From positions 1 to 49,035 of IMG/VR virus record IMGVR_UViG_3300037628_000105: a stretch of 49,035 bases of DNA. One strand, 5' to 3'. The notes beneath the pieces are model-generated. The model saw only the letters and a program-made list of their open reading frames with translations, did no database searches and was not told the DNA's origin. The translations under genes and the position numbers were made by a program. This document shows, in pieces, positions 3,793 to 43,030 of the stretch; positions within the stretch are counted from its first letter, which is position 1; each line of letters starts with the position of its first letter. The DNA comes from a virus.

Positions 3793-4044
3793 ATGTCGTC
3801 TGGTGGCCTTACAAAAATGGTTCCGGGTCGTAATTCGGAAACGATCACTCCCAGTGACACCGTTAACCTGTCAACGCCTTCTCGGGCTATTTGGGTCGGT
3901 GGGGCTGGAAATATTGCCGTAGAGATGCTGGATGGAGGTACTCAAGTCTTTGTGGGTGTTGTCGCTGGCTCGCTTCTACCGCTTCAAGTTACTCGTGTTA
4001 ATAGTACGGATACTACAGCAACTAATATGGTTTCGGTCTTCTAA
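3793..4044 (+). CDS. Head spike base protein (RcGTA Rcc01079-like)
   Basis: 83 aa. The motif order TPSDT, then SRAIWVGGAGNIAVE, GVVAGSLLPLQVTRV and a C-terminal TTATNMVSVF closely follows the small spike-base family of the Rhodobacter gene transfer agent and alphaproteobacterial phages. In that particle it sits on capsid vertices and holds a fibre. The neighbouring lectin-like gene fits as that fibre. Ribosome site AGGAG is nine bases before the ATG. Confidence 0.7.
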   Translation: MSSGGLTKMVPGRNSETITPSDTVNLSTPSRAIWVGGAGNIAVEMLDGGTQVFVGVVAGSLLPLQVTRVNSTDTTATNMVSVF

Positions 4045-4817
4045 TGACATTCCCTAAAGGATATGCTATCGGTTTAATGGTTTCTCCGGCAGCAGGTACA
4101 GACACCGCTCCTCCTGGTTTTCCGGTTAATGCTGTCCATTTCGATGGCACTAATGACCATCTAAATCGTGGTGCCGGCCTGACTGGCGGTTCTGATGGGA
4201 ATAGTATTCTGATCTCCTTATGGTTTAATTTCACTGGTGGGGACGGCGTAGCACAATATTTCTTCACTGACAGTTCAAATAAGATCCTCATTCATCGACG
4301 TACAAGCGGTCTCTTCCAATTTCGCCTTCGGTCTGCTGCTCCCGCCACTCTTTGGGAGATCGATACTACGGCATCATATACTACAGCGAGTAATCCGGGA
4401 TGGCACCATATGTTGATTGCTGCCGAGTTGGACGGCACTCCTGTAGGGCAAATCTATATCGATGATAGTGCAGCGCCGTTTACGGTAGCTGAAGCGTTGG
4501 CAACTGGTAGTATTGATTGGACGGAAACAGATTATTTCGTCGGATCGACCCAAGTACCGGGATCGCGACTTAATGGCGATTTTGCTGAGGTCTACATAAC
4601 GGACGAGTATCTGGACATTAGTATTGAGGCTAATCGCCGTAAGTTTGTTACTGGGGGCATCAAACCCGTAGATTTAGGGGGTGATGGTTCTGATCCGACA
4701 GGAACAGCTCCTTTAATTTTCATGAGTGGTGATACGGATACCTGGCATACCAACAAAGGCAGTGGCGGTGGATTTACAGAGAATGGTGCGTTGACTGATG
4801 CTGCCTCAAGTCCTTGA
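4044..4817 (+). CDS. LamG/concanavalin-like head spike fibre
   Basis: 257 aa. From about residue 27 the protein follows a LamG/ConA-like beta-sandwich: AVHFDGTNDHLNRG, ISLWFNFTG, LFQFRLRS, a WHHMLIAAELDG core strand, GQIYIDDS, and FAEVYITDEYLD. Such domains bind glycans. As the partner of the spike-base gene (start overlaps its stop) it may project from the head and touch the host surface or its polysaccharide. The function is inferred from fold and position. Confidence 0.65.
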   Translation: MTFPKGYAIGLMVSPAAGTDTAPPGFPVNAVHFDGTNDHLNRGAGLTGGSDGNSILISLWFNFTGGDGVAQYFFTDSSNKILIHRRTSGLFQFRLRSAAPATLWEIDTTASYTTASNPGWHHMLIAAELDGTPVGQIYIDDSAAPFTVAEALATGSIDWTETDYFVGSTQVPGSRLNGDFAEVYITDEYLDISIEANRRKFVTGGIKPVDLGGDGSDPTGTAPLIFMSGDTDTWHTNKGSGGGFTENGALTDAASSP

Positions 4818-9826: not shown

Positions 9827-10195
9827 ATGAAAGTTAAACTACTTCGCACTTGGTTCTATCCCGTAGATGCCAAGCCAGTAAATGACAAACGTGCTATCTC
9901 AGGCGGTCGATACAAGAAGGGTACTCATGACGATATACCCGAGGAGCTAAGGCCGTATCTTCCAAAGGATGCGGTAGTCCTTGATGATGACAAGCCTGTC
10001 GTCGTCCCGAAAGAAGACCTAGGAATAGTCCCCCCACAGCTCTCTGACTTCGACGGTGAACGGCTGGATGCTGATGCCGAAGCGAAGCTGTTAGAAGGGG
10101 CAGAAGAGGCCCGTCAAGCGGCTATCAAAGTTAAGCGAGTGGCTGCATTGGCTAAGGCGCGAGAAGCTAAGAAGGCTAAGAAGGACGCGAAGTAA
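9827..10195 (+). CDS. Hypothetical head-tail region protein
   Basis: 122 aa. The N-terminal 45 residues look folded (KVKLLRTWFYPVDAKPVND, then GGRYKKGTHDDIPEEL). The C-terminal 50 residues form a charged, Lys/Ala/Glu-rich helix ending in a lysine cluster. Not recognised. It lies between cement and gp11-like genes behind a 92-base gap containing an imperfect stem (GGGG...CCCC, GCAGA...TCTGC). Stop overlaps next ATG. Confidence 0.6.
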   Translation: MKVKLLRTWFYPVDAKPVNDKRAISGGRYKKGTHDDIPEELRPYLPKDAVVLDDDKPVVVPKEDLGIVPPQLSDFDGERLDADAEAKLLEGAEEARQAAIKVKRVAALAKAREAKKAKKDAK

Positions 10196-10839
10196 TGGCT
10201 CTAAGCGTAGTTCAGATTTGCAATATGGCTCTGTCTCATATAGGCTCTCGTAGTAAGATCGAGAGCTTAACTGAGGCTAGTACTGAAGCATGGCAATGTA
10301 AGCAATGGTATGAGTTTAGTCGCTTACAGGCATTAGAGATGTTTAATTGGAACTTCGCTAAGAAGCGTATTACGCTCTCTGCACACTCTGAAGATCCGCC
10401 TGATGGTATATGGGCCTTTCGATACTCTTATCCCTCTGACTGCGTAGTCGCACGAGAGATTGAAAATATTATTGGCCCGGATGCTGATGCTCATCCGTTT
10501 AAGGTGGAGATGGCTAGTGATGGTGAAAGCAAATCAATCCTGACGAATATTGAAGATGCTAATCTAATCTGTACTTTCGATCAGGCTAATCCCAATATGT
10601 ATACCTCCTTCTTCGTCATGCTACTGTCTTGGGTACTGGCTTCAAACATTGGTTTCTCCCTGACGGGTAAGCAATCTGTCGTTGATCGGGCTCTTGGCAA
10701 TGTCCTTAATCTACAAGTCATGGCTCCTGCTATGAATGCTAACGAGGAAGTAGACAAGCCGCCTCGTGATGCTGATTGGATTAGGGCGCGTCAAGGGGTT
10801 CGTAGAGCCCCTGATGCACGTATTTTGAGGAGCAGTTAA
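10195..10839 (+). CDS. Tail tubular protein A / adaptor, T7 gp11-like
   Basis: 214 aa. VVQICNMALSHIGSRSKIESL at the start, the KQWYEFSRLQALEMFNWNFA helix (about 37-57), WAFRYSYPSDCVVAREI, then TFDQANPNMYTSFFVMLLSW fit gp11-type adaptors, which form a dodecamer between portal and nozzle. Length agrees with the family. Confidence 0.88.
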   Translation: MALSVVQICNMALSHIGSRSKIESLTEASTEAWQCKQWYEFSRLQALEMFNWNFAKKRITLSAHSEDPPDGIWAFRYSYPSDCVVAREIENIIGPDADAHPFKVEMASDGESKSILTNIEDANLICTFDQANPNMYTSFFVMLLSWVLASNIGFSLTGKQSVVDRALGNVLNLQVMAPAMNANEEVDKPPRDADWIRARQGVRRAPDARILRSS

Positions 10840-11042: not shown

Positions 11043-13121
11043 ATGGTCAAGCAAGTTCAACCGTCATTCACGAAGGGGGAAGTCTCTCCTAAGCTACACG
11101 GTCGTGTTGACACTGGCATGTATCGGGAAGCGCTTCGCACTGCTAGGAATGCTATCGTCCATACCTTTGGAGGTATTAGTAATAGGCCCGGTACAGTATT
11201 CATCGGGCCGGCTAAGGTCCATGATGATGATCAGTTACGTCTAATCCCATTCCAATTCAATACTACCGATCAGTATATGCTAGAGTTCGGAGACCTATAT
11301 ATGCGGGTGATCCGTAATGATGGGCATGTTGTTGAGACCGCTGTTAACATTTCAGGGATCGCTAATACCGCTCTAGCTAAGATCACTACCTCTACCTCGC
11401 ATAGCTATTCAAACGGAGATGAGGTATTCCTTGATGCTATCGGTGGTATGGTAGAGCTGGAGAACCGACGTGTATTGGTTGCCAATGTTACATCGACTAC
11501 CTTCACGATCCAGGATCAATATACCGGGACGGATATTGATAGCACGGACTTCACAGCCTATACCTCGGGCGGGACCGTGGCTAAGGTATTCACTCTTACT
11601 ACTCCTTATATTAGCGCTGATCTTTCGCAGCTAAAGTATGTTCAGTCGGCGGATACAATGACGCTTACCCATCCGAACTATGCTCCCCGAGATCTTACTC
11701 GGACGGATCATGACGTATGGCCCCTCGATGTTATCTCATGGGCTCCGGACACTTCAGCTCCAACTAATGTTGCGGTTGTAGCCGATACTACAGGGGCAGT
11801 AACGCATGAGTATGGTGTCACCGTAATTAATACCACTACGTTTGAAGAGAGCCTAGTGGCTGAAGACAGTATTGCCAATGGCGCAGTCACAGTAGATAAT
11901 ACGATCACCTGGGATGCTCATGCTGATGCTTTGCAGTATAAGGTATATCGGAAGGAGAATGGGCTCTACGGTTTCATTGGAGCCACTGAAGCTACCACGT
12001 TCAAGGATGCTAATATTGATCCGGATACTATTCAGGGACCTCCCATTGCCCGTGACCCGTTCTCAGGAGTAGATAATGATCCTGGTGCTGTAACCTATTA
12101 TGAGCAACGCCTGATCATGGGCGGCACGCTTAACAACCCGGATACCCTTTTCGCCTCTCGAACAGGTAATCGTAGAAACCTATCCATCCGTTTCCCGCTT
12201 CAGCCGGATGATGCTATAGTAGCTACACTGGATAGTCTTGAGGTGAATGAGATCCGTCACTTGACCGCTGCTGCTTCTGATCTGTTGATCTTTACCAGCG
12301 GTAGTGAATGGCGCGCTAACTCGGGGGCAGCTCCGGGCTTCAGTACGATCAATCTGGACTTCAAGCCGCAATCGGCATGGGGCTGTTCCCATCTCCGCCC
12401 CTTGAGGGTAGGAGGGGAGTATCTCTTCGCTGAGGACGGCAATGCTAGGGTAAGGGCCTTAGCCTTTGATGCCTTGACTACGGATGGATATACCTCGACG
12501 GATTTGAACTTCCTGGCAGATCATCTGTTGGCCGATCAAGCTCCGGACGAGTACATCTTGAAGGACTGGTGCTTTCAGTACTTCCCTGAGCCGCGTCTGA
12601 TCGCCGTTCGGACGGATGGTATGGTGCTTACGGCTACCTATGATAAGGTCACTCAGACTATTGGGTGGACTACCTGGGATACAGAAGGCAACTATGAGGC
12701 GACGGCCTCTCTCCGCCGTAATATTAGTTCGGTAGAGGACGGCGTATACTTCATTGTAAAGCGCCGAGTACCAGATGAGAACGGTGATCTACAGGTTGTT
12801 CGGTTGATCGAGAAGCTACATACGCGTAAGTTTGCTGATGAACGTGATGCCTTCTTCTTGGATGCCGGATCGAGCTATGATCCTCAAGTTAACATCACTG
12901 GTATTGCCGAGAGTGGTGATGATATTGTCATCACTACGGATGGACCACATGGATATCAAGTGGATGACGTAGTTGAGTTCGGGGGCATTATCTGGGAGGT
13001 TACGGTTGATGTCCTAGGAAACGATGAGGAAGTTGATTTCTTGAATGATCATCGTTATATTATTACAGTGGTGACATCGAATACATTCACATTCACCTGT
13101 AGCGGAGAGGTACTGTCGTGA
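11043..13121 (+). CDS. Tail nozzle, N-terminal part (T7 gp12-like)
   Basis: 692 aa. It follows the T7 gp12/tail tubular B pattern: PSFTKGEVSPKLHGRVD, RNAIVHTFGGISNRPGT, PFQFNTTDQYMLEFGDLY, a VTSTTFTIQ small domain (about 110-180), YISADLSQLKYVQSADTMTL, YYEQRLIMGGT, and RLIEKLHTRKF...DAFFLDAG near 615. In full-length relatives the DAG-SY motif is followed by the C-terminal barrel. Here the chain instead gains a second VTSNTFTFT-type small domain and stops. The missing end is carried by the next gene. Confidence 0.88.
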   Translation: MVKQVQPSFTKGEVSPKLHGRVDTGMYREALRTARNAIVHTFGGISNRPGTVFIGPAKVHDDDQLRLIPFQFNTTDQYMLEFGDLYMRVIRNDGHVVETAVNISGIANTALAKITTSTSHSYSNGDEVFLDAIGGMVELENRRVLVANVTSTTFTIQDQYTGTDIDSTDFTAYTSGGTVAKVFTLTTPYISADLSQLKYVQSADTMTLTHPNYAPRDLTRTDHDVWPLDVISWAPDTSAPTNVAVVADTTGAVTHEYGVTVINTTTFEESLVAEDSIANGAVTVDNTITWDAHADALQYKVYRKENGLYGFIGATEATTFKDANIDPDTIQGPPIARDPFSGVDNDPGAVTYYEQRLIMGGTLNNPDTLFASRTGNRRNLSIRFPLQPDDAIVATLDSLEVNEIRHLTAAASDLLIFTSGSEWRANSGAAPGFSTINLDFKPQSAWGCSHLRPLRVGGEYLFAEDGNARVRALAFDALTTDGYTSTDLNFLADHLLADQAPDEYILKDWCFQYFPEPRLIAVRTDGMVLTATYDKVTQTIGWTTWDTEGNYEATASLRRNISSVEDGVYFIVKRRVPDENGDLQVVRLIEKLHTRKFADERDAFFLDAGSSYDPQVNITGIAESGDDIVITTDGPHGYQVDDVVEFGGIIWEVTVDVLGNDEEVDFLNDHRYIITVVTSNTFTFTCSGEVLS

Positions 13122-14482
13122 CACTAGAACTCAGTGCTGTCTCTTATGTTGCTACACAAGAGTTTGCGTCTTTTACGACAGGTTCCCCGTTTAACGATGA
13201 TATCACGTTTTCATCGGATGGGGCCTTTGCTTATACTATGGCTAGCGAAAGTGGAGATGAGAATATCTATCGTTTCCCTTTGGCTACCGCGGGACTACTG
13301 AGTAGTATTACGGCCTCTGATAAGAAGTTTAACCTCGAAGGGCTGGTTGCTCTTATCAATCATCGGGGACATACCTGGAATGCCGCGGGTACAAAACTCT
13401 ATGTAGCGGATATTGCTAACTTCCTCGATGAGAGTTTCATTCAAGAGTTTACTCTTGGTACCGCTTGGGACCCCAGTACAATCTCTGGAGTAGTGACTAA
13501 GGATATCTCGGCGACGATCTCTGTTGGTAATCTTAAAGGGATTGATGTCGTAGGTGCGGATGGCTACTTATTCGCAGTCGATGCTTCTGTCCCGTCTATC
13601 GTTAAGTTTACGATGACGGCGGGAGATATCTCAACCCTTGTTGATAGTGGCGATAGTTATACTACGACCCCATTAACCGCTTCGCCAAGGGGTGTTCGTG
13701 TAGGAGGAAGCGGTACACGTCTGTATATCAATCAAGAGTGGCCGTCGGTCGCTTACCAAACGAACCTGTCTGTTGGGTATGATATTACTACTCTCACGGA
13801 CTCTGGTAATTCGCTTGCTATTGCAACTGAGTTACCTGGGGAACAGACATCAGGTTTTGCTATAAGTGATACTTGTATCTATTTTTCCGCCTTTAATGGC
13901 GACATGGATATGCTACAGTATTGTCAAGCAGCGGCTATCAGTAGTGATCCCTGTACTGGAACTTACGTTGAAGGGGGTGTAGTGAGGTTGGCTATCGGTG
14001 TCCTCACAGGTTTCTGGTGGCTTGGCGGTGCCGGTGACGGCAGTAACTGTAAAGTTGTTACAGCCCTGGTTGATGGTAATGTTACAGAACTAGAGGTTTG
14101 TAATGGATCTATTACATTCCCGCGCTTAGCTGCTAGAGCACATATAGGACTGCCTTATACCACCGATATCGAAACCCTCAATATAGAAGCGGGTGGCGGT
14201 GGTACGCTCCAGGGTGGACGAAATAAGATCACGGACGTTACCACGAGGTTTTTCCGTTCAAGGCTTCCTCTAATCGGACCAGACTTCTATGATATGGTTC
14301 AGATGAAGCAGCGGGAAAACGAAAAGTATGGTGAGAGTACAAACCTACTCACTGGAGATAAAACCACTAATATTCCTCCAGATTGGAATAGCCACGGAAG
14401 GATTGCCTACAGGATCAAGGACCCTGTTCCTTGTACTTGGTTGGCGGTTATTCCAGAATTTGAGGTGGAGGATGACGGTTAA
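13118..14482 (+). CDS. Tail nozzle, C-terminal part with beta-propeller-like insertion
   Basis: 454 aa with a GTG start overlapping the previous TGA (GTGA) and an excellent GGAGAGG site seven bases upstream, so independent coupled translation is likely. Residues about 1-285 contain repeated strands such as FSSDGAFAYTMAS, WNAAGTKLYVADI, VGADGYLFAVDA, VGGSGTRLYINQ, the rhythm of a beta-propeller. Residues about 320-450 are the lost nozzle C-terminus: ITFPRLAARAHIGLPYTTDI, ITDVTTRFFRSRLPLIGPD, MKQRENEKYGES, then a VPCTWLAVIPEFEVE end. Confidence 0.8.
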   Translation: MTLELSAVSYVATQEFASFTTGSPFNDDITFSSDGAFAYTMASESGDENIYRFPLATAGLLSSITASDKKFNLEGLVALINHRGHTWNAAGTKLYVADIANFLDESFIQEFTLGTAWDPSTISGVVTKDISATISVGNLKGIDVVGADGYLFAVDASVPSIVKFTMTAGDISTLVDSGDSYTTTPLTASPRGVRVGGSGTRLYINQEWPSVAYQTNLSVGYDITTLTDSGNSLAIATELPGEQTSGFAISDTCIYFSAFNGDMDMLQYCQAAAISSDPCTGTYVEGGVVRLAIGVLTGFWWLGGAGDGSNCKVVTALVDGNVTELEVCNGSITFPRLAARAHIGLPYTTDIETLNIEAGGGGTLQGGRNKITDVTTRFFRSRLPLIGPDFYDMVQMKQRENEKYGESTNLLTGDKTTNIPPDWNSHGRIAYRIKDPVPCTWLAVIPEFEVEDDG

Positions 14483-20091: not shown

Positions 20092-22604
20092 TGGCTGTAG
20101 ATCTATGTATTCTCGCTAAAGCTGCGGAGGGCCTTGTCAATTCGGCTAAGGCTAAGCAGCTTGCTAAAGAGGTCTCTCAGGCTGTGGCCGAGGGGATCGA
20201 GGACGGTTCCATCAAAGGGCCGGCTGCTGAGAGGGTGTTGGCTGAGCAGATGCTTAACCGGAAGCTGCGTGAGCAGATCCGAAAGAGGCGGATGACTACC
20301 TTGCAGAAGCGCGTGGTGGTCAGCTTAGATCGTGACTTCCAGAATGCCCTGGATCGTGGCTACGGCGTAGATGCTGCCATGAAGGCGCGCTATGCTGCTG
20401 ATCTCAGCCGTCAGATCCCAGACATTGAGGATGTCGATACCCGGATCAACAGTATCCGTGGTCGCTATCACTCCAAGATGGGGGAAGTTCTACAGGAATT
20501 CCGCTCTAAATACGCTGGTCTTCATCGTAATCTGTCTGGACTAGACGATATGATCCACGTCATGCACGGTAAGCATGGCAAGAAGGTCAGTAATCCAGCA
20601 GCCCAAAGCTTGGGTAAGGCGATGACGGAGACCATGGAATATGCCCGTGTCCGCTATAATGCGGCAGGCGGGGATATCCCGAAGCGTGAGGATTGGGGCT
20701 TCTTCCAGACCCATGATCCTGTCCGTCTAGCGGCAGTTGAAAGACAGGACTGGATTGATTTCGTTATGACGAGGCTGGCTCCAGATCGTATGACGGATGC
20801 TAATGGACTACCGATGTCAGCTCGTCAGGTAGAGCGCTCACTCGATAATATCTATGATAGCGCTACTACCCGTGGTCTAAGTGACCTCCCTGGGCGTGAT
20901 CCAGGCCCTGGCTTGATGGGGAGTAATATCAATCAGCGTGCCAATGCTCGTTTCTTAGTGTTCAAGGATAGTACGTCCTGGCTAGAATACCAGCGGGAAT
21001 TCGGTACGGGTGGACTATACGACCATATCATTACATCTCTAGATCGGATGGCCCGAGATACTGCCATCCTTGAAATCCTAGGTCCTTATCCGGAAGCTAC
21101 CCTCCGGTATCAAGAACGGCTCATCGATAAGGCTAGCGCCCAAGGCGCAATCTCGCTAACCGGCAAAGCTGGTGCTAAGGCGGCTGGTAAAATCGGTGCC
21201 CCTAAGACCCAACTTCAGGCACTATATAAGACGGTGACTGGACGTACTGGTATCACGGCTAACGAGAGACTGTCCGTATGGGCGGGCTCTGTCCGTGCTA
21301 TTATGACCAGTGCTACGTTGGGCGGGGCCTTTCTTTCGGCTATCGCTGACACCGCTACCGTTGGCCTTACGGCTCGGATGGCTGGTGTATCCCCTCTCAA
21401 GGTATGGGGTAGGATGGCCAGAACCTTTGCCTTGAATAGTACAGCGGATAGGCGACTTGCGATTAACTTGAACTTTGCGGCTCAAGGCTGGGCTAGTCGT
21501 GCCATCGCAGCACAGCGTGTACTCGGTGAGGCACAAGGAGCTCGTTGGACTGAACTTATGACCGATAGTGTCTTGCGTGCTAGTTTCTTGTCCCCTTGGA
21601 CTGAAGGCGGGCGTATCGGTTGGCAAGTCGAGATGCTAAGTTTCATTACCACTCAAGCCGGTAAGCCCCTTAAAGATATCGATCCAGCCCTACGCCGTAC
21701 TTTCGAAACCCACGGACTCACAGAAGAAATGTGGGATGTTATCCGTAAGAGCGAGCAATGGGTAGATGAACATACTGGTGCCAAGTTTCTACGCGCTGAA
21801 GAGGTGCAGGGTACAGACTTCGAAGGGATCAACTTTCAAGCAGCTAACAAGTTACAGGATGTCGTCCTACGTGAGATGGAGTATGCTGTCCCTGGAGCCA
21901 ATGCCCGCGTCCGTGCAGCCTTTACCCAGGGTACCCCAGCAGGTACGTTTTGGGGCGAGGTAATGCGTAATACAGCTATGTTTAAGAGCTTCCCCATCTC
22001 AATCATGGCCTTGCATTGGCAACGGTTGATACGAGGTAGTGAAGCTCGAACTAAGGCAGAATACGCGGCTTGGCTCTTTATCGGTATGACCGGAATGGGA
22101 ATGGTTGGTGAACAGCTAACCAGTCTTAGTCGTGGTCGTGATCCTGAGAGTTTGACTAGCCCCGCATTGATAACTAGGGCGGTCATTCGTGGTGGCTCTG
22201 GTGGGCTGCTGGGTGATACGCTGCTCCAAGGTGGGAGATACGGTGCCAGTCTCGATACGCTCTTAGGTCCGATCTGGAGCCTAGCTCAGCAGGGAGTTAG
22301 CCTGACAGTAGGTAATCTCCAACAAGCCCTTGAAGGTGAAGAGACTAACGCTGGTCGAGAGCTCTCCAGATTTGTTGAGCAGAATATGCCGGGTCGGTCT
22401 ACTTGGTATGCTCGCCTTGCCTTTGAACGTCTCGTATTCGATAATCTAGATCGGTTGCTCGATCCACAAGCCGAACGAGAGTTTGCTAAAATTGAACGTA
22501 GATATAGGCAAGATCGGCATCAACAGTTCTTCTCCCGACCAGGACGTGGTGGAGTTCCGCAGCGTACCCCTGATTTCTCCCAGATGCTTGAGGAAGCAAG
22601 ATGA
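20091..22604 (+). CDS. Internal virion protein (gp16-like, second part)
   Basis: 837 aa from ATG 20091, which has GGAGG ten bases upstream and overlaps the previous TAA. A GTG eight codons earlier lacks a site. Starts MAVDLCILAKAAEGL, then helical segments, EDWGFFQTHDPVRLA, ARFLVFKDSTSWLEYQREFG, a membrane-like stretch near residues 395-425 (TSATLGGAFLSAIADTATVG) and FKSFPISIMALHWQRLI. Conserved in podoviral ejection proteins; the two adjacent genes together approach the size of a single large gp16-like core protein. Confidence 0.7.
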   Translation: MAVDLCILAKAAEGLVNSAKAKQLAKEVSQAVAEGIEDGSIKGPAAERVLAEQMLNRKLREQIRKRRMTTLQKRVVVSLDRDFQNALDRGYGVDAAMKARYAADLSRQIPDIEDVDTRINSIRGRYHSKMGEVLQEFRSKYAGLHRNLSGLDDMIHVMHGKHGKKVSNPAAQSLGKAMTETMEYARVRYNAAGGDIPKREDWGFFQTHDPVRLAAVERQDWIDFVMTRLAPDRMTDANGLPMSARQVERSLDNIYDSATTRGLSDLPGRDPGPGLMGSNINQRANARFLVFKDSTSWLEYQREFGTGGLYDHIITSLDRMARDTAILEILGPYPEATLRYQERLIDKASAQGAISLTGKAGAKAAGKIGAPKTQLQALYKTVTGRTGITANERLSVWAGSVRAIMTSATLGGAFLSAIADTATVGLTARMAGVSPLKVWGRMARTFALNSTADRRLAINLNFAAQGWASRAIAAQRVLGEAQGARWTELMTDSVLRASFLSPWTEGGRIGWQVEMLSFITTQAGKPLKDIDPALRRTFETHGLTEEMWDVIRKSEQWVDEHTGAKFLRAEEVQGTDFEGINFQAANKLQDVVLREMEYAVPGANARVRAAFTQGTPAGTFWGEVMRNTAMFKSFPISIMALHWQRLIRGSEARTKAEYAAWLFIGMTGMGMVGEQLTSLSRGRDPESLTSPALITRAVIRGGSGGLLGDTLLQGGRYGASLDTLLGPIWSLAQQGVSLTVGNLQQALEGEETNAGRELSRFVEQNMPGRSTWYARLAFERLVFDNLDRLLDPQAEREFAKIERRYRQDRHQQFFSRPGRGGVPQRTPDFSQMLEEAR

Positions 22605-24055
22605 CTATTGAAAGTGAAGCCAATAAGATAACGTATCCGGGCGATGATAGCCAGACAGGTTTCGACTTTACCTTTACCATCGCCGAGCCCAACGTCGGTG
22701 AAGCTAATGACCTAGCGGTATGGAAGATCGACAGTGCTGGTGCGCCTAGCCTCTTGACTGAGGGTACGGGTACTAATGAGTATAGCGTGGCTGTTACTCT
22801 ATACCCCGGCGCTGGCACCGTAACCTTCCCGGCCTCCGGTAGTGGTACCTTGGCGACCGGAGAGTATCTCGTAATCGTCCGACATCAGGCCTTGTTCCAG
22901 GAGACGCTTCTGAGTAATCAAGGCGGATATCTTCCCAAGGTGTTGGAGAACCAGCTAGATGAACTTGTACGTCAGATCCAGCAACTTAAGGAGGAGGTTG
23001 ACCGCTGTGTTAAGATTACGCTGAAGAGCAAGGATGTCGATAGCGCTTCTGCTGATCTCCCTAACTTGGTGGCTAACGAGTTCTTAATCGTCAACCCAAC
23101 CGCAGATGGCGTGACCATCGGTGGAGGTTCCGTAGCTACGGCCGCGGCAAGTTCAGCCACACCTCAAGACGTCGGTACCAGTGGGGGAGCCGCCGGCTCG
23201 GGCACTGACTTCTCTCGTGATGACCATGTTCATGACATTGGATCAGCCTCTGACCTAGTGGCTGATACTACTCCCCAAGCAGGGGGTGATCTGGATATGA
23301 ACGGTCAAGATCTCCTGATCGACAGTGGCAACTTCATTGGTGATGAGAGCGGTAACGAGCAGATTGTCTTCGTCACTGTAGCATCCGCCGTCAATCACCT
23401 TCAAGTTACGAATGCTGCGACAGGTAACCACCCTGTCCTTGCGTCTGTTGGCGCTAATACCGATATCGATATTGACATCACTCCAAAGGGTACTGGTCGT
23501 GTTCACCTGAATGGCCCTGTCGTCTACAGCGGTGACCTTGATGTAAACGGTAATAGCATCGTATCCCTCTCTGCTGGCGATATCCCTATCACCCCGGACA
23601 CCACTGGTGAGATCATCCTCGATGGGGTTAAGTGGCCACAGGCAGACGGAGACCCAGGGCAGTTTCTGATTACCGATGGGGCTGGGCAGCTAGGATACCA
23701 GCATTCCGGCGGGGCACCTGTCTCGACAACCACTACGAATAACACGCCGTTTGTGATCAGAAGTGAAGCAATACCGACGGACACCGCGGTCATGGTTCAT
23801 GTTGAGGGTGTGGCTATCAACACCGATGACTTCTCTAATGCATCGGGCATTGAGATCCACAACCTTGTATTGAATGATGGCGGTACGGTAACTGAGGGTT
23901 CACAGCTAGGTGATATCGTTGATAATACGCCTTGGGCCTTGGACATCAATGTCGTAGGCAATAACGCCACCAAGGAGTGGGAGGTAGTGGTCACTGGGAT
24001 CGCCGGCACCAATATCGACTGGGACTTGAACATCTACTTCGAGCACACTGCGTAA
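22601..24055 (+). CDS. Tail fibre with T7 gp17-type N-terminal anchor
   Basis: 484 aa. Residues 1-140 match the T7 fibre anchoring domain: NKITYPGDDSQTGFDFTFTI, DLAVWKIDSAG, GAGTVTFPASGSGTLATGEY, IVRHQALFQETLLSNQGGYL and LENQLDELVRQIQQLKEEVD. The shaft has DNG-type repeats (DLDMNGQDLLIDSG, DVNGNSIVSLSAGD). The tip (about 390-484) is beta-rich with no recognised fold and is the likely receptor-contact part. ATGA overlap with the ejection gene. Confidence 0.85.
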   Translation: MTIESEANKITYPGDDSQTGFDFTFTIAEPNVGEANDLAVWKIDSAGAPSLLTEGTGTNEYSVAVTLYPGAGTVTFPASGSGTLATGEYLVIVRHQALFQETLLSNQGGYLPKVLENQLDELVRQIQQLKEEVDRCVKITLKSKDVDSASADLPNLVANEFLIVNPTADGVTIGGGSVATAAASSATPQDVGTSGGAAGSGTDFSRDDHVHDIGSASDLVADTTPQAGGDLDMNGQDLLIDSGNFIGDESGNEQIVFVTVASAVNHLQVTNAATGNHPVLASVGANTDIDIDITPKGTGRVHLNGPVVYSGDLDVNGNSIVSLSAGDIPITPDTTGEIILDGVKWPQADGDPGQFLITDGAGQLGYQHSGGAPVSTTTTNNTPFVIRSEAIPTDTAVMVHVEGVAINTDDFSNASGIEIHNLVLNDGGTVTEGSQLGDIVDNTPWALDINVVGNNATKEWEVVVTGIAGTNIDWDLNIYFEHTA

Positions 24056-32909: not shown

Positions 32910-33079
32910 TAATCAAGGCTTTCATTTGTCAATATCACTACGGTACTATCAAACTCCATACCCGTAATTTCAAACGGCTCCCCTATAACCCCTTGACAAT
33001 CTAAATATACATCCTCAGCCTTTACTATGGCGTCGGAATGAAGCGCTTGAAGTTGGTTTATCATCTCTTTTACCGTCAT
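32909..33079 (-). CDS. Small MTVK-family protein (copy 1)
   Basis: 56 aa from ATG 33079 behind AGGAAGG. MTVKEMINQLQALHSDAIVK, then EDVYLDCQG and a beta-rich ITGMEFDSTVVILTN. Copy 2 at 34402-34557 has the same MTVK-start, D-(V/I)Y and ITGM/IGGM blocks, so the two are paralogues. Function unknown. Overlaps the sigma-like gene by 65 bases in another frame. Confidence 0.6.
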   Translation of the reverse strand: MTVKEMINQLQALHSDAIVKAEDVYLDCQGVIGEPFEITGMEFDSTVVILTNESLD

Positions 33080-33593
33080 TCTGCATTTCCTTCCTAAACC
33101 GTCTAACAATCATCTCTATTGCGTTAGCTGATTTCCGAACTCTATGACCAATCGCCACATAGTCATCTCCGAGGATAAGTGCATCGTGTAATACTTCTCT
33201 GACATCATCATCCTTATCCGCTATGATTTGCAATAACTCTTGAGTATATACTACTTGCTCAGGCGTTGAGCCATTTGAGATACGCCCCTGATCTACACTC
33301 GCTTCCAACCGCTCATCGAATTCAAGAGGGGCAGCTTGTGTATGCTTCTGCTCTCGTCTACGATGGTTAATACGCTCACCGGGAAGTATCTTTGTCTCGA
33401 ACCAAGTAGCAAAGGCGAACTCATCCTTGTACTCTTCCCATCGCTCTAAGGCCCTAGTGTATGCCTCTTGTACGATGTCCTCTCCAATATCTCTAGCACC
33501 CTTCCGACTATACCGAGAGACGAGGCCCTTAAAGAACTTCTTATAATGTAGCGTCAGCAGACTGTCGAATTGCTGTGGCCTTTCTGATATCAT
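33015..33593 (-). CDS. ECF-like RNA polymerase sigma factor
   Basis: 192 aa with the two-domain layout of group 4 sigma factors. Region 2 (about 10-85): HYKKFFKGLVSRYSRKGARD, GEDIVQEAYTRALERWEEY, FATWFETKI and NHRRREQ. Region 4 (about 115-175): ELLQIIADKDDDVREVLHDA, LGDDYVAIGHRVRKSANAIE as the helix-turn-helix, and MIVRRFRKE. It would bind host core RNA polymerase and redirect it to phage promoters; phiEco32 is a precedent. No anti-sigma was recognised. Start overlaps the upstream gene. Confidence 0.75.
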   Translation of the reverse strand: MISERPQQFDSLLTLHYKKFFKGLVSRYSRKGARDIGEDIVQEAYTRALERWEEYKDEFAFATWFETKILPGERINHRRREQKHTQAAPLEFDERLEASVDQGRISNGSTPEQVVYTQELLQIIADKDDDVREVLHDALILGDDYVAIGHRVRKSANAIEMIVRRFRKEMQNDGKRDDKPTSSASFRRHSKG

Positions 33594-37100: not shown

Positions 37101-37853
37101 TTAGAGGACTCGTAGGGCGTTAGCGTATGACTGTATCGTCTGTCCTTCAAGGCCTGGAGCAGTGTTAACTTCAAGGACGTAGGCTCGTTCCTGTTTCTCA
37201 TTGTAGATAACATCAACTGCTCCGAAGTCAAGGCCAGTAGCTCGGTGAGCATCAATGGCGACATTAAGGACACAGTTTTCGGGATTACAATCTTCCCGTG
37301 CAAAAACAAAACCGTTTTGCCAGCTTCGTATCTGCCAATTTGGGTCATCATGATCTTTCCTCCGTGCCTTTCGGGCTACATCGATAACATCTCCGTTAAC
37401 TATATGGACCCGGTATTCCTCCTTCTTCGGGATGTATTGGGTGTAGAGAGGGGCCGCTACTACAAACGCTGGGTCCTCCGATATCACAATACCTTCTCCA
37501 GAATGCCCCGCTAGGACAGTGCGACAGACAACAATCTTCTTGTCCTCGATCCATTTATAGGCTACCGCTTCGTCTGCCGTCCAAGGTGGTGCAAGTTCCC
37601 CTAGGTTAGCCGCATCGAGTATTTTGAAGAAGGTTAACTTGTTGGTTGCGTGTTGCACAGCCTCCGGGGGATTAATGATCCGACAATCCCGAACCTCATT
37701 CGGCAGCTCAATACAGCCCCAATTAATCACGGTCTTATCGGGACCCCCTCGAAATCGTGACCTCTCTCGCTTGATCTGTTTGATACCTAGCTCTTTTGCC
37801 AGGGCCTTAACCGATTTACTGCCTGTTCTGTACGGATAAATATACATAGCCAT
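37101..37853 (-). CDS. ATP-grasp ligase of the amidoligase cluster
   Basis: 250 aa. ATP-grasp features in order: VINWGCI, ATNKLTFFKILD, KIVVCRTVLAGHSGEGIVI (flexible phosphate loop), KEEYRVHIVNGDVIDVARK, and GLDFGAVDVIYNEKQERAYV with LEVNTAPGLEG (Mg-binding E-x-N). This RimK-like group forms acyl-phosphates and joins them to amines, making peptide-like bonds. The substrate is unknown. Overlaps the amidoligase start by one base. Confidence 0.85.
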   Translation of the reverse strand: MAMYIYPYRTGSKSVKALAKELGIKQIKRERSRFRGGPDKTVINWGCIELPNEVRDCRIINPPEAVQHATNKLTFFKILDAANLGELAPPWTADEAVAYKWIEDKKIVVCRTVLAGHSGEGIVISEDPAFVVAAPLYTQYIPKKEEYRVHIVNGDVIDVARKARRKDHDDPNWQIRSWQNGFVFAREDCNPENCVLNVAIDAHRATGLDFGAVDVIYNEKQERAYVLEVNTAPGLEGQTIQSYANALRVL

Positions 37854-38824
37854 TAGAAATCATACTCCTCTTCATCCTCATCATCCCCGTTATCTACCCA
37901 TACTGCCCATCCGCCGCCTGGCCCTGGATCATCCAGGAATTTTTTAGGTGGTATGAAGACGGGCGGTGGTGCGGCGTGACCCGGAGCAAACTCCACTTCT
38001 GGGTCATCTTCCTCGGCATCCTCTAGCTCTTGCGGCCGCCCTTCTTCGTAAGCAATCTCTTGTATACGACGGACACCGTTCATCATTAATACATCCATAT
38101 TAGGACATATGAGTTCCTTTGCATATTTCCCCATGACCATATCAACAAAGCTTTGCCCACCTTCCATACTTACACCTTCGACAACGGCTGGAGGTATTGA
38201 GAAATCTTTTGATGCCTCTCGAATTTTGAGCAGCATTTCAGCCCAGAGTTGGATCGTCTTGTAGTCCTTTGGGGTACGTAGCGCACGGAACTCCAGGGTA
38301 CCGAACTTTCTTAGAGAATTGAGATTGATGGAGGAATATCTCATGTCCCCGTTTAGTCCGTGGAGCCCCCGGAATGTTCCGCGCTGCTGCCCTTGAATTA
38401 GGATATCATAGATATATTCCGCATCTTTACCGCGTAGACAGAAGAGATTACCTTCTCTATCCTCCCCACACCAACGAACCAGTAAATCTTCCAGCACCAA
38501 GTACAGGCAGATGAACGTCATGGTCTGCTGGAATGTCCAGGTCTGCATATTCAGATGAATATGTACGCCACATCGGTCGCTTGGCTTCAGGCTTGATCTA
38601 TTCGCTTTAAACGTCTCCCAAAGATGGACTAAAGCGGTTTGCACCTGATCTACGGGGAGGGGCTGACTAACGTATTCAAATCCATCACCACGCAACGATC
38701 CATCGCCCTCTACATGCCAATATTTAGCCACATGGCCGGGCAAACGTATCCCTTCGATCTCGATTTCAATCCCGACTTCGCCTCCTACTTTACGAAGTCT
38801 AAACATATCTTTTATCTTAGCCAT
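37853..38824 (-). CDS. COOH-NH2 amidoligase (Amidoligase_2-like)
   Basis: 323 aa. GGEVGIEIEIEG (about 14-25), the WHVEGDGSLRGDGFEYVSQP block (36-55), CGVHIHLNMQTW (85-96) and INLNSLRKFGTLEFRALRTP (166-185) are the four motifs of the glutamine-synthetase-like amidoligases. Metal would be held by the Glu and His residues. The C-terminal 60 residues are acidic and proline-rich and probably disordered. Pairs with the second amidoligase at 39403-40197. Confidence 0.85.
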   Translation of the reverse strand: MAKIKDMFRLRKVGGEVGIEIEIEGIRLPGHVAKYWHVEGDGSLRGDGFEYVSQPLPVDQVQTALVHLWETFKANRSSLKPSDRCGVHIHLNMQTWTFQQTMTFICLYLVLEDLLVRWCGEDREGNLFCLRGKDAEYIYDILIQGQQRGTFRGLHGLNGDMRYSSINLNSLRKFGTLEFRALRTPKDYKTIQLWAEMLLKIREASKDFSIPPAVVEGVSMEGGQSFVDMVMGKYAKELICPNMDVLMMNGVRRIQEIAYEEGRPQELEDAEEDDPEVEFAPGHAAPPPVFIPPKKFLDDPGPGGGWAVWVDNGDDEDEEEYDF

Positions 38825-39413
38825 TTAGATCCTCCATCAGAACTTCTTTCAAGAAGAAGAACTTATCGTTCAGTCGTAGTTGGCCCCTTACAATATTGCC
38901 AACCTGTCCACGGGTTCTATAGAGTAGTTTTCCGTTGTGGATAGCGAAGCGACGAGAGAATGCAGCGCTAGGATGCATGGCGCGGAGAATATCAGGGACC
39001 TTCGGATATTTTCCTCGAATTGTTTTGTCCATCTCCTTGGAATGGATAAGATGACGATGATCTACCCCCACCTCGCCGGCTATTAAGCGTTGTGATCTTG
39101 CGTTATTAGATGTTAATCCAATTTTCCACTGCCTTACCGGCATTCTCTCGACATAGTAAACGGCACCGCCGGGTATGTTTACCATCCCTAATGGCACCGG
39201 GTTTAGATCAAAGGCATCATCCGGGAAGTTTCCAATCTTTGGCTCTGCCTCTTTATAGATATCACCGATGCTAAGATATTTTATAAGGTAGTCTCTTTCT
39301 CCCTTACCCTGTTCAAGCCGGGTAATATATATCGGTCGTTTACGATACCGAATGATACTCCCTTGCAGGTACGATTTGGCATGTTGAAGGTCATAGAACT
39401 CCTTAGTTTGCAT
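38817..39413 (-). CDS. Conserved protein of the amidoligase cluster
   Basis: 198 aa from ATG 39413, six bases after GGAG; a longer start at 39482 lies inside the neighbour. Conserved-looking blocks: SYLQGSIIRYRKRPIYITRL, LNPVPLGMVN, VYYVERMPVRQWKIGLTSNN, and RFAIHNGKLLYRTRGQVG. I associate this pattern with phage amidoligase loci, but no function is known. Overlaps both amidoligase genes. Confidence 0.65.
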   Translation of the reverse strand: MQTKEFYDLQHAKSYLQGSIIRYRKRPIYITRLEQGKGERDYLIKYLSIGDIYKEAEPKIGNFPDDAFDLNPVPLGMVNIPGGAVYYVERMPVRQWKIGLTSNNARSQRLIAGEVGVDHRHLIHSKEMDKTIRGKYPKVPDILRAMHPSAAFSRRFAIHNGKLLYRTRGQVGNIVRGQLRLNDKFFFLKEVLMEDLNG

Positions 39414-40197
39414 GGTATTCTCCGATAATCTCCATTGCCTTACGTTGGTCACCGGTGTTGATAACCCCTTGTAGATCGACACCGCTCTTTATGATGGCAG
39501 GGATGATGCTCTGATCATTCACCACATTACCAACTGCCTTCCGGCTATTATGCCACATTATTAGCATCTCTTGTGGATTAGCAACCCAATAGTTGGAGAG
39601 AACACGGTACTCCAAGCCATATGGTTTAGGTCGGAAGGCACCGGCTTGACCGTACATTTGTCTGCGCTTCTGATCCCTATCCACCAGGAGGGAATGGAGA
39701 CCCAGATAAGCATCCATCTCACGTACTATTTCCGTGCATAGAACGAAATGATCATCGTCATATGGATCGGCACCCTCTGTCCAGCCAATATGGAGATGAC
39801 CAGCTGCCGTTCGCATACTAGAGTGTTGATCAGGCCGCTCATTAACCTGTCCCGTCCATGCATTAAAGTCGGGATCGCAGCCCAACTCTACCGCCTCTTT
39901 CGGCAATGTCTTCATATATTCTGGGTCGAACTCAGCCGTCGAGGAAAGGACGAACTCATATTCACTCGGCACCATCTTTCGGAGTTCACAGAGGACAGTC
40001 GTGACATTGTATTGAAAATCTTCGTACTTAATAGCCGGATCAATATTGAACTCCAATGCCATACCATCCACCTGTACAGCACCGCGCTCGACAGGGTATG
40101 GCTTCTCCTTAGTACCAGGGATGAGGCCATGTGCTGATATAAACTTGCCATCTAGTTGAACAAATAATTCGGGATCAGCACCAATTTTTATATCCAT
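39403..40197 (-). CDS. Phage-type COOH-NH2 ligase
   Basis: 264 aa. IGADPELFVQLDGKFISAHG, then VQVDGMALEFNIDPA, RTAAGHLHIGW and RPKPYGLEYRVLSNYWVANP are hallmarks of the COOH-NH2_lig family, a compact glutamine-synthetase-fold ligase. It should use ATP to couple a carboxylate to an amine. Start overlaps nothing; the class II amidotransferase ends one base upstream. Confidence 0.85.
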   Translation of the reverse strand: MDIKIGADPELFVQLDGKFISAHGLIPGTKEKPYPVERGAVQVDGMALEFNIDPAIKYEDFQYNVTTVLCELRKMVPSEYEFVLSSTAEFDPEYMKTLPKEAVELGCDPDFNAWTGQVNERPDQHSSMRTAAGHLHIGWTEGADPYDDDHFVLCTEIVREMDAYLGLHSLLVDRDQKRRQMYGQAGAFRPKPYGLEYRVLSNYWVANPQEMLIMWHNSRKAVGNVVNDQSIIPAIIKSGVDLQGVINTGDQRKAMEIIGEYHAN

Positions 40198-41316
40198 CTA
40201 CATTCCTCCAACTAGTTGGATATTTTCATCGTCAGCAAGGGCAACGCAGTCACCACATGCTGCATTATGGAGATCTAAGACAACGGAAGACTCATAATCC
40301 AAAGCGGATCGGCAGAACGTACACGCTTTGAACTGCTTATGGAACTTCTTTTCCGTCATTGGTTTCGCAAACAACTCCTCGATTTCTTCCTCAATCGCTT
40401 CGTCATTGGACCCACGGGGCGTCTTCGTCGGTGTTCCATCCGTACATTTCTTTTTCCCATTGCCGTTGGACGGAGCAATCATAGGGTCCGTGCTGTCCTT
40501 CTCCCCCTTTTGTCCTGAATTGGGGACGAACTTACCTGTTTTTTCATCCCATTCAGAGTTGCCTTTCCATACGCCCCTGCTAATAGGGAAAGAGGCGGTT
40601 ACGGGCGTGATAATTCGAGCGAATGGGGCAAGCAGGCCACCTGTTTGCTTAATCCCGTCTTTGAATGTCCACTTAAAGCGGAAATGATTGTCCGCTTTCG
40701 GATATTTAACCTCTTCAATGGTAATGCCACCCCGCCGCTCGACGCAACCCTCTAGCATCCACGCCTCGGAAGCAACAAACATCGTTGCTCGGTCGGCAGT
40801 ATATGCAAAGTGAAGCGGCCGCCGTATGTTTCTGATGAAGTTAAAGGACTTCTCTTTGGCGTCCCACCAGACTAACGAAGCCGCACCATCGAGATTTTCC
40901 CACGCATCAGCAATCCCTTTTTGCCGGATATGGTCGAAGATGGCTTCGCTATCTGTATCAAAGGCATGGGCGTTTACTAATCCAACCTCGCTGAGTAGCG
41001 TGCCGTTATGGACACCAGTAATATGTCCCGACACAAATGGGTGAGCGTTTTTAGCCGTGACTTTACCCTTGGTAGCCGCTCGATTATGTCCAATATAAGC
41101 CATGTTAACTTTATTGAACATCTTATGGACATGACTGCGCATCAGGAGCTCGGTGGGTAAGACAGTATCTTTCATCACCTTAGCACTACCATCCAATCGG
41201 ATGGCCGCTATCCCGGTACTGTCACTACCCCTTAGTACATCGACCTGAAGAAGATCACAGAAAACTCTCTCCTCTACCAGCCCGACCTTGCCGAATACGG
41301 CAACAATACCACACAT
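40198..41316 (-). CDS. Class II glutamine amidotransferase with C-terminal zinc motif
   Basis: 372 aa. MCGIVAVFGKVG gives the N-terminal nucleophile Cys2 after Met removal. RGSDSTGIAAIR, IGHNRAATKGKV, NAHPFVSGHITGVHNGTL and DTDSEAIFDHI complete the Ntn-type glutaminase site, which releases ammonia. The C-terminal 100 residues contain a linker and CTFCRSALD...CGDC, a zinc-binding pair. It may feed ammonia to the ligases or transfer an amine. Confidence 0.88.
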   Translation of the reverse strand: MCGIVAVFGKVGLVEERVFCDLLQVDVLRGSDSTGIAAIRLDGSAKVMKDTVLPTELLMRSHVHKMFNKVNMAYIGHNRAATKGKVTAKNAHPFVSGHITGVHNGTLLSEVGLVNAHAFDTDSEAIFDHIRQKGIADAWENLDGAASLVWWDAKEKSFNFIRNIRRPLHFAYTADRATMFVASEAWMLEGCVERRGGITIEEVKYPKADNHFRFKWTFKDGIKQTGGLLAPFARIITPVTASFPISRGVWKGNSEWDEKTGKFVPNSGQKGEKDSTDPMIAPSNGNGKKKCTDGTPTKTPRGSNDEAIEEEIEELFAKPMTEKKFHKQFKACTFCRSALDYESSVVLDLHNAACGDCVALADDENIQLVGGM

Positions 41317-41331
41317 ATACCTCTCCTCCGT

Positions 41332-41991
41332 TTAAGCGTTACTTACGATAAGAGAAGACCTATCGAGACATAGGTCCTCAACGTAATCCATGTATCTTAT
41401 TGCCAATTCTTCTTGGTTCTGGAATTCAGGATGCGGTTGAAAGCAGAGACAGTTTTGCGCCGGATAGTAGAGGACTTCGATATCTATAGGCGCTCTATCG
41501 AAGACCACTAAAACCCCGTAGTCTGTCTTCATCCGTTCCTTCTTAGTGGAACAACTAGCTGTAACAATGATGTCAGCATCTTTACTGGGAAGCATCATTT
41601 GATGGTGAGTGCTCGTTACCTTGAAAGTCTTGCTGGTACGAACATCCTTTGCTTCATGAATGCCACCGGCATGACCATCGACATGCTGATATAATGAACC
41701 CCCACACATGACATTGAGGAATTGTCCTCCTCGGCAAATCCCTGCCATCGGGATATTAAGGGATAACCCTTGTTGGAAGATTAGTATCTCCCGATTATCA
41801 CGGAGAGGGTTGGTTGACGTGGAAACATGTTTCGCTTCACCGTACAAGTTAGGTGAAACATCATGTCCACCGGTGAATTGGATCAAGTCGGCGACATGAA
41901 TATCACGTTTCAGAACCTTCCACCCGGCACTGCGAAACATCCGTACATAGGCTGGATCGCCGTTCACGATAAATACTTTCTTTTGGCTCAT
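41332..41991 (-). CDS. Class I glutamine amidotransferase / peptidase C26-like
   Basis: 219 aa from ATG 41991 with GGAG six bases upstream. IQFTGGHDVSPNLYG, MAGICRGGQFLNVMCGG (nucleophile Cys), and CFQPHPEFQNQEEL (catalytic His and Glu) define the triad fold. Closest by motif to gamma-glutamyl hydrolases of the C26 group. It may cleave gamma-glutamyl bonds, trimming or removing residues added by the ligases. Confidence 0.82.
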   Translation of the reverse strand: MSQKKVFIVNGDPAYVRMFRSAGWKVLKRDIHVADLIQFTGGHDVSPNLYGEAKHVSTSTNPLRDNREILIFQQGLSLNIPMAGICRGGQFLNVMCGGSLYQHVDGHAGGIHEAKDVRTSKTFKVTSTHHQMMLPSKDADIIVTASCSTKKERMKTDYGVLVVFDRAPIDIEVLYYPAQNCLCFQPHPEFQNQEELAIRYMDYVEDLCLDRSSLIVSNA

Positions 41992-43030
41992 AGATAACTC
42001 CGTTTCCTTTGATGAATTCATCGTGGAACTCTTCCACAGTTCGAGTAGAGAAGTCGAAACCTTTTCTCGTTTGCTTACGCCTGAGACTGTCGACAGTCTC
42101 CATCAAATCCTTGCCCGGCATTATTAGGCCCTGTTTCTGTGGCTTTGGTTGCCAGGCCATCATCAATCCTGTATATTTCATAGATTTTACGGCTTTTTCT
42201 AGAGATTTGATAATAATTTTACCTTCAACCTGATAACCAGCATATTCTTCCATCTCAACTGAAGTTTGAGGATTATGATCTAAATAATTCTGTAATCCCA
42301 TGGGACCAAGTGTATTATTAAAAATGGTATGGCCGGCATTCACACCATAAGTATTATTTCTATACCAAGTTCCGCTCATTTGTCCCCACGAGGCCGCTAT
42401 GAAAGCAATAGCTGGATCGACGCCAAGTTTTACTAACGATGTCCAAGATTTCAGGATCTCTTCATGTTCATAGAGATATCGAAACTGCATAGCTGCCCCG
42501 ACAATATAAGAAGCAGTCATTTTTGTGCAATCTTGAATTGTACATTGAGTTTTCACATAATGAGCATGATCATTTACAAACGCCGTGGCATATGGGCTTC
42601 CGGTCATGCACCATTCTTGATACTCTAAGTATTTAAGTGCCCTGGGATTATAACCGGCTCGATCTACAAAGTATTTATGATTACCGGGGGACTCATAATT
42701 TAGGGACCCATAACAAGGTTGCATCCAATAATACTTTGTTTTATATTGGATTTTCCCATGAATAATGGCAAAATTATTTAAACCGCCAGCATCTCTTTTA
42801 TGTAAACGGGCTGCTGCCTTTTCCGCCGCAGCAAGGGCATTAAGAATAGGTATTTGCTGCTTTCCCTTATAGCGTTGAACCTCTTTCTCATCGACACCAC
42901 AATGGATACAGAGACGTTCCTTGGGAGGGACACGTTTGAAGACATAAATAACCCCCGGGTCTCTCTGATATGGAGGTTTATCATAGCGATGCCGATGTCC
43001 ATCACCGATTTTAGCTAGAAATTCAGCCAT
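41903..43030 (-). CDS. Unknown protein within the amidoligase cluster, AT-rich
   Basis: 375 aa, GGAG before ATG. An early CIHCGVDEKE motif, then NNFAIIHGKIQYKTKYYWMQ, DRAGYNPRALKYLEYQEWCM, and AFIAASWGQMSGTWYRNNTY. No family recognised. The segment about 42180-42800 is visibly richer in A+T at third positions than its neighbours, suggesting recent acquisition. The last 25 residues overlap the C26-like gene. Conserved order within the cluster suggests it belongs to the same pathway. Confidence 0.7.
   Translation of the reverse strand: MAEFLAKIGDGHRHRYDKPPYQRDPGVIYVFKRVPPKERLCIHCGVDEKEVQRYKGKQQIPILNALAAAEKAAARLHKRDAGGLNNFAIIHGKIQYKTKYYWMQPCYGSLNYESPGNHKYFVDRAGYNPRALKYLEYQEWCMTGSPYATAFVNDHAHYVKTQCTIQDCTKMTASYIVGAAMQFRYLYEHEEILKSWTSLVKLGVDPAIAFIAASWGQMSGTWYRNNTYGVNAGHTIFNNTLGPMGLQNYLDHNPQTSVEMEEYAGYQVEGKIIIKSLEKAVKSMKYTGLMMAWQPKPQKQGLIMPGKDLMETVDSLRRKQTRKGFDFSTRTVEEFHDEFIKGNGVIYEPKESIYRERRSSLCTDVSQCRVEGSET

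Follow-up and report, generated by a model that had tools for sequence, protein, structure and literature searches.

Nozzle proteins of the gp12 type (TTPB) form the gate for DNA release in short-tailed phages, and they are single chains in the solved examples met here. They already have a central seven-bladed propeller, which is the sole propeller of T7 gp12 (PMC6702177). The fibre dock of T7, next after this propeller, lies on the outer surface, and the platform barrel combines the C-terminal domain with three strands contributed by the N-terminal 45 residues (PMC6702177). The nozzle of the Cobetia phage Carin-1 (8CK1) is likewise one chain, of 830 aa, encoded by one gene. We describe here what sequence comparisons have confirmed as a two-gene form of this known protein, with an extra propeller. 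The sequence studied, referred to below as the window, is the complete 49,035-base IMG/VR virus record IMGVR_UViG_3300037628_000105 (positions 1 to 49,035). A literature search, which reached few subscription-only papers, found no report of a split nozzle.

The plus strand of the window carries a podovirus structural module, in which profile searches recognized the terminase, a portal-type protein (phrog_332), the major head protein (phrog_212), the adaptor or TTPA (phrog_394) and the two nozzle genes, designated ORF A and ORF B. These are followed by internal virion proteins (phrog_308 and phrog_418), a large lysozyme-bearing protein, a virion structural protein (phrog_684) and a tail-fibre-like protein. 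The nozzle genes are therefore placed as expected for the succession of adaptor, nozzle and internal virion proteins. The features of the locus are listed in Table 1. The end of the GGAGAGG motif is separated from the GTG of ORF B by 7 bases. By analogy with T7 gp12, the C-terminal nozzle module of ORF B (C-module) would comprise the fibre dock and the platform.

Table 1 Features of the split nozzle locus and its surroundings
Feature	Position	Strand	Evidence or remark
Adaptor / tail tubular protein A, gene preceding the nozzle	10195..10839	+	phrog_394, E 5.2e-44
ORF A, nozzle N-terminal and central part	11043..13121	+	692 aa; phrog_376 and 8CK1 matches
First FCCH domain, ORF A residues 112-182	11376..11588	+	PF16190, 35.5 bits (cut-off 29.5)
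DAGSSY motif, end of nozzle central module, ORF A residues 607-612	12861..12878	+	sequence, family alignment
Truncated second FCCH-like domain lacking its last strand, ORF A residues 617-692	12891..13118	+	profile, alignments, strands of the model
GGAGAGG, likely ribosome-binding site of ORF B	13104..13110	+	sequence; conserved in L001
GTGA stop/start overlap of ORF A and ORF B	13118..13121	+	sequence; ATGA in L001
ORF B, propeller and nozzle C-terminal part	13118..14482	+	454 aa, GTG start
Five-bladed beta-propeller, ORF B residues 4-272	13127..13933	+	five ~53-residue repeats, AlphaFold2 model, likeness to 3QQZ
TYVEGGVVRL, last strand of second FCCH-like domain, ORF B residues 282-291	13961..13990	+	alignment with single-chain relatives
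C-terminal nozzle module, ORF B residues 311-452	14048..14473	+	phrog_376 positions 568-711; 8CK1 residues 678-824
Tail-fibre-like protein, candidate main receptor-binding protein	22601..24055	+	N-terminal match to phrog_1640 and phrog_5510

Other loci of the window were noted in passing. A 257-aa protein with a marginal match to the concanavalin A-like lectin/LamG domain PF13385 (28.2 against 27.6 bits; 4044-4817, plus strand) lies between the terminase and portal genes and is possibly a head decoration. The minus strand encodes a sigma-70 region 2/ECF-like sigma factor (33015-33593) and a cluster (37101-42021) of a RimK-like ATP-grasp protein, a PF12224 amidoligase, a phiEco32-like COOH-NH2 ligase (PF14395), a class II glutamine amidotransferase and a peptidase C26, which looks as if it served the synthesis of a peptide-like modification.

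The assignment of both ORFs to a single nozzle is based on the tail nozzle family phrog_376 (gp12/TTPB; profile of 712 positions). ORF A matched positions 4-578 of the profile with its residues 2-635 (E 5.7e-126), whereas positions 568-711 were matched by ORF B (E 8.4e-30), so that, by profile comparison, the two ORFs cover the family between them. Similarly, residues 12-598 of the Carin-1 nozzle were matched by the sequence of ORF A (E 6e-70) and residues 678-824 by that of ORF B (E 7e-19). When the model predicted for ORF A (mean pLDDT 83.1) was superposed on solved nozzles, the Z-score was 36.0 over 390 residues for 8CK1 and 22.6 over 392 residues for T7 gp12 (6R21). The nozzle fold was thus matched by the model in the case of ORF A and only by sequence in the case of the C-module. 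The first-pass annotation had proposed a nozzle split into two genes with the C-terminal blocks of the family only at the end of the second one; the profile matches agree with this proposal, and no second copy of the C-module was found elsewhere in the 49,035-base window.

A search for the same split in related phages, also proposed in that annotation, led to a second example, contig IMGVR_UViG_3300007775_000024 (L001). It shows the same break, the same neighbouring genes and a propeller; the TGA stop of its ORF A' is part of an ATGA overlap, and the start of ORF B, which is ATG, is likewise preceded by GGAGAGG. The usual state of a nozzle, a single polypeptide (a property that is not strictly defining), is thus replaced by two ORFs in both phages. 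The ORF A proteins of the two phages are 69% identical and most of their fourfold sites are changed. In the C-modules, identity is 72% and 35 of the 45 fourfold sites differ; selection therefore acts on the second frame as well, and judging from this pattern the C-module of ORF B is under purifying selection.

The presence of the split in the quite diverged L001 indicates that it is real. A sequencing or assembly error, in which an indel near 13103-13121 would have disrupted a single gene, was ruled out on this ground and is extremely improbable. Such breaks, caused by an indel or a tandem duplication, do exist in our survey (L051, L152 and Pseudomonas phage UFJF_PfDIW6), and every other intact nozzle among the matches listed is a single chain. 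However, those breaks lie in the conserved core or result from duplication, whereas the break described here is situated outside the conserved core, at a variable insertion site beside a 285-aa module, and L001 shares the break, the stop/start overlap and GGAGAGG at 69% identity. The earlier argument against an error, which relied on the GTGA overlap and GGAGAGG, has gained strength in this way. The nozzle gene of UFJF_PfDIW6 (L278, 1489-3958) is broken by a tandem duplication of ~110 bases and is annotated as two tail tubular B genes; this break is probably an assembly or sequencing artefact.

Programmed -1 frameshifting would yield a fused A-B protein of ~1150 aa, either alone or beside the two separate chains. 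ORF B is indeed read in the -1 frame with respect to ORF A, with a frame overlap of ~15-36 bases. No slippery heptamer X XXY YYZ is present in the frame overlap of either the window or L001, and the conserved elements are instead the Shine-Dalgarno-like GGAGAGG and a start codon. Programmed frameshifting was rejected because the overlap has no slippery site in either phage, and we consider it hardly probable.

To assess the rarity of the split, profiles of the two modules (central module and C-module) were run against loci from viral scans (peptide patterns, 80 loci per scan). Among the matches listed, both modules were found in one ORF at 178 loci (152 distinct sequences) and in two ORFs only in the window and L001. 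The sample is small since L001 is the only other contig sharing the split; the viral scans yielded no further sister contig among the matches listed. Prophage relatives were not confirmed in two scans of genome contigs, and hence no host was assigned. The cultured phages Carin-1, Flu_PA14_4 and ctype202, inspected directly, have one nozzle gene each. The spacing between the central module and the C-module was below 20 aa in about half of the survey and 80-140 aa in most of the rest, with a maximum of 189 aa, compared with ~390 aa in the window if both ORFs are counted. Because the spacing varies so much, the site between the modules is an insertion hot spot; a propeller together with a split was found there only in the window and L001 (among the matches listed). 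Single-chain nozzles with an insert of ~160-170 aa at the same site were also observed (L021, L022, L023, L025, L027, L034, L035, L036 and L059).

The separate start of ORF B and the independent folding of its propeller in the model would suit a decoration or adhesion protein that only docks on the tail, with ORF A as a nozzle devoid of the usual C-terminal module. This is very unlikely, since ORF B carries, as its C-module, the conserved C-terminus of the nozzle, which is kept by purifying selection and present in the window in this copy only, and all single-chain relatives with a complete gene retain the C-module (among the matches listed). We infer that the nozzle is probably formed by the two chains together.

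The ~285 residues of propeller-like repeats noticed in the first reading proved to be five repeats of ~53 residues (type FxPDGTKMYV...VYQYxLSTAWDxSTAS), modelled by AlphaFold2 as a five-bladed beta-propeller whose ring is closed by the N-terminal strand (pLDDT 85.6, pTM 0.87). As gp12-type nozzles already hold the central seven-bladed propeller, the five-bladed one is additional, a point on which the earlier note was silent. Its nearest solved fold is the C-terminal domain of YjiK (3QQZ, Z-score 22.3); glutaminyl cyclases (Z-scores 16-19) and SMP-30/paraoxonase-type enzymes are also near. The propeller of the receptor-binding protein of Staphylococcus phage phi11 (5EFV) was superposed with a Z-score of 17.2 over 241 residues at 8% identity. 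That protein also has five blades closed by an N-terminal strand, and glutaminyl cyclases are the nearest enzymes to its propeller as well (PMC4901313), but it is trimeric and belongs to a siphovirus baseplate.

The propeller is the most divergent segment between the window and L001 (27% identity versus 60-73% in the other large segments). In a tree of 58 propellers the two split phages were not joined, but each of them lies on a very long branch; their propellers may or may not have been acquired separately. Pfam and PHROGs gave no recognized family for the propeller of the window. The family of LSTAWD-repeat propellers occurs commonly in other phage proteins, as stand-alone units or as arrays, with at least 322 confirmed places, and none of these proteins carries nozzle modules among the matches listed. 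Stand-alone proteins such as gp42 of Roseobacter phage CRP-9 contain the same five-repeat unit (FxPDGTKMYV...QYxLSTAWD), but differ in forming genes of their own or repeat arrays without nozzle modules. Such propellers are abundant in viral contigs (L198-L276), often in several adjacent genes or long arrays, and the five-bladed LSTAWD-repeat type as such is without a Pfam family or a strong PHROGs family.

The position of the cut could be defined more closely. The ORF A sequence after DAGSSY, which had not been addressed in the earlier note, is judged from alignments to be a truncated second FCCH-like domain. Residues 619-689 matched the FCCH part of our own profile, whereas Pfam PF16190 reports only the first stretch, and the domain aligns clearly with intact copies in single-chain relatives. 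It is of the long subtype found in the single-chain nozzles of L003, L119, L120, L130 and L132, which are 43-47% identical to ORF A in the alignment. The domain ends with NTFELED-LEGNAVDGTAFEGYVEGGYVRK in L003, and ORF A of the window ends with NTFTFTCSGEVLS. When ORF A is modelled by itself, the last strand is present in the first FCCH domain (175-182) and absent from the second. The corresponding strand, TYVEGGVVRL, is located in ORF B on the C-terminal side of the propeller, and L001 has its equivalent, TYVSGGVARL, also after the propeller. With the missing strand located past it, the propeller lies within the hairpin that ends the FCCH-like domain, and it is here that the gene is opened.

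Association of the chains is likely because each of them lacks what the other supplies. ORF A and ORF B would be co-translated from one mRNA, with translational coupling through the overlap, and would form one nozzle protomer, with six copies of each per tail. Strand sharing would join the chains at two places, the second FCCH-like domain, completed in trans by the ORF B strand, and the platform barrel. The strongly conserved residues 1-27 of ORF A are unfolded when this chain is modelled alone, which may partly be an effect of modelling; considered with the contribution of N-terminal strands to the T7 barrel, this suggests that the platform, too, is completed in trans.

Cysteines near the cut are a further peculiarity of the split phages. 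C311 and C328 of ORF B are common to both of them and absent from all 144 other C-modules aligned. C686 of ORF A, seven residues from its end, is also present in both, and the aligned intact relatives have no cysteine there. More cysteines directly precede the FCCH strand in both phages (C279 in the window). C311/C328 and C686 may form a hairpin disulfide or a chain staple; an inter-chain disulfide is only a lead, and C311-C328 could equally well be a hairpin bridge within chain B. Rather tentatively, the nozzle can be pictured as an A6B6 hetero-oligomeric channel in which the broken FCCH-like domain is complemented by a strand, perhaps stapled by disulfides, and the propeller is swappable between phages. 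If this were true, the propeller could be exchanged without disturbing the channel, as it would occupy the free beginning of a separate cistron.

The location of the T7 fibre dock, after the central propeller and on the outer surface, suggests that the additional propeller should face outwards, and by this analogy it probably does. It might serve for adhesion as an exchangeable domain, making contact with the cell envelope or with a glycan on the surface and assisting the tail fibre; we rate the chances of an adhesion role as even. Its strong divergence and its fold near that of the phi11 propeller make receptor binding plausible by analogy, but the propeller need not be a receptor binder because the phage has a separate tail-fibre-like gene. 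A two-chain nozzle with a structural or enzymatic propeller (a spacer, a fibre-docking, glycan-cleaving or cyclase-like domain) would be consistent with the enzymes among its near folds, with its place at the start of the fibre dock and with that same fibre-like gene. A structural spacer or an enzyme would not usually diverge to 27% identity between the two phages, and this alternative appears unlikely. Taken as a whole, we lean towards a nozzle of a short-tailed phage encoded by two overlapping cistrons, in which A and B would form a strand-sharing protomer bearing an outer adhesion propeller. The first-pass annotation had pictured a hetero-oligomer with an added outward domain that could bind the receptor. 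The split, the propeller and the case against an error stand; the two-chain nozzle is what we infer from them, and receptor binding is only plausible.

A natural split would show where the nozzle chain tolerates cutting without loss of function and offers a two-component system for studies of nozzle assembly. It also marks the junction of the central module and the C-module as a loading site for extra surface domains in these phages. Among the systems compared, L001 shares the break, overlap, GGAGAGG, propeller and neighbours and differs in the ATG start and the diverged propeller. The single-chain nozzles of L003, L119, L120, L130 and L132 agree in domain order through the second FCCH-like domain and in the C-module, but are encoded in one gene, without the propeller and with the FCCH-like domain intact. 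The Carin-1 nozzle resembles both ORFs in sequence and ORF A in fold, but only ~80 residues separate its two match regions and it has no added propeller. T7 gp12 is similar to ORF A in its fold and in the gene order after the adaptor, and differs in being a single chain with the central propeller alone.
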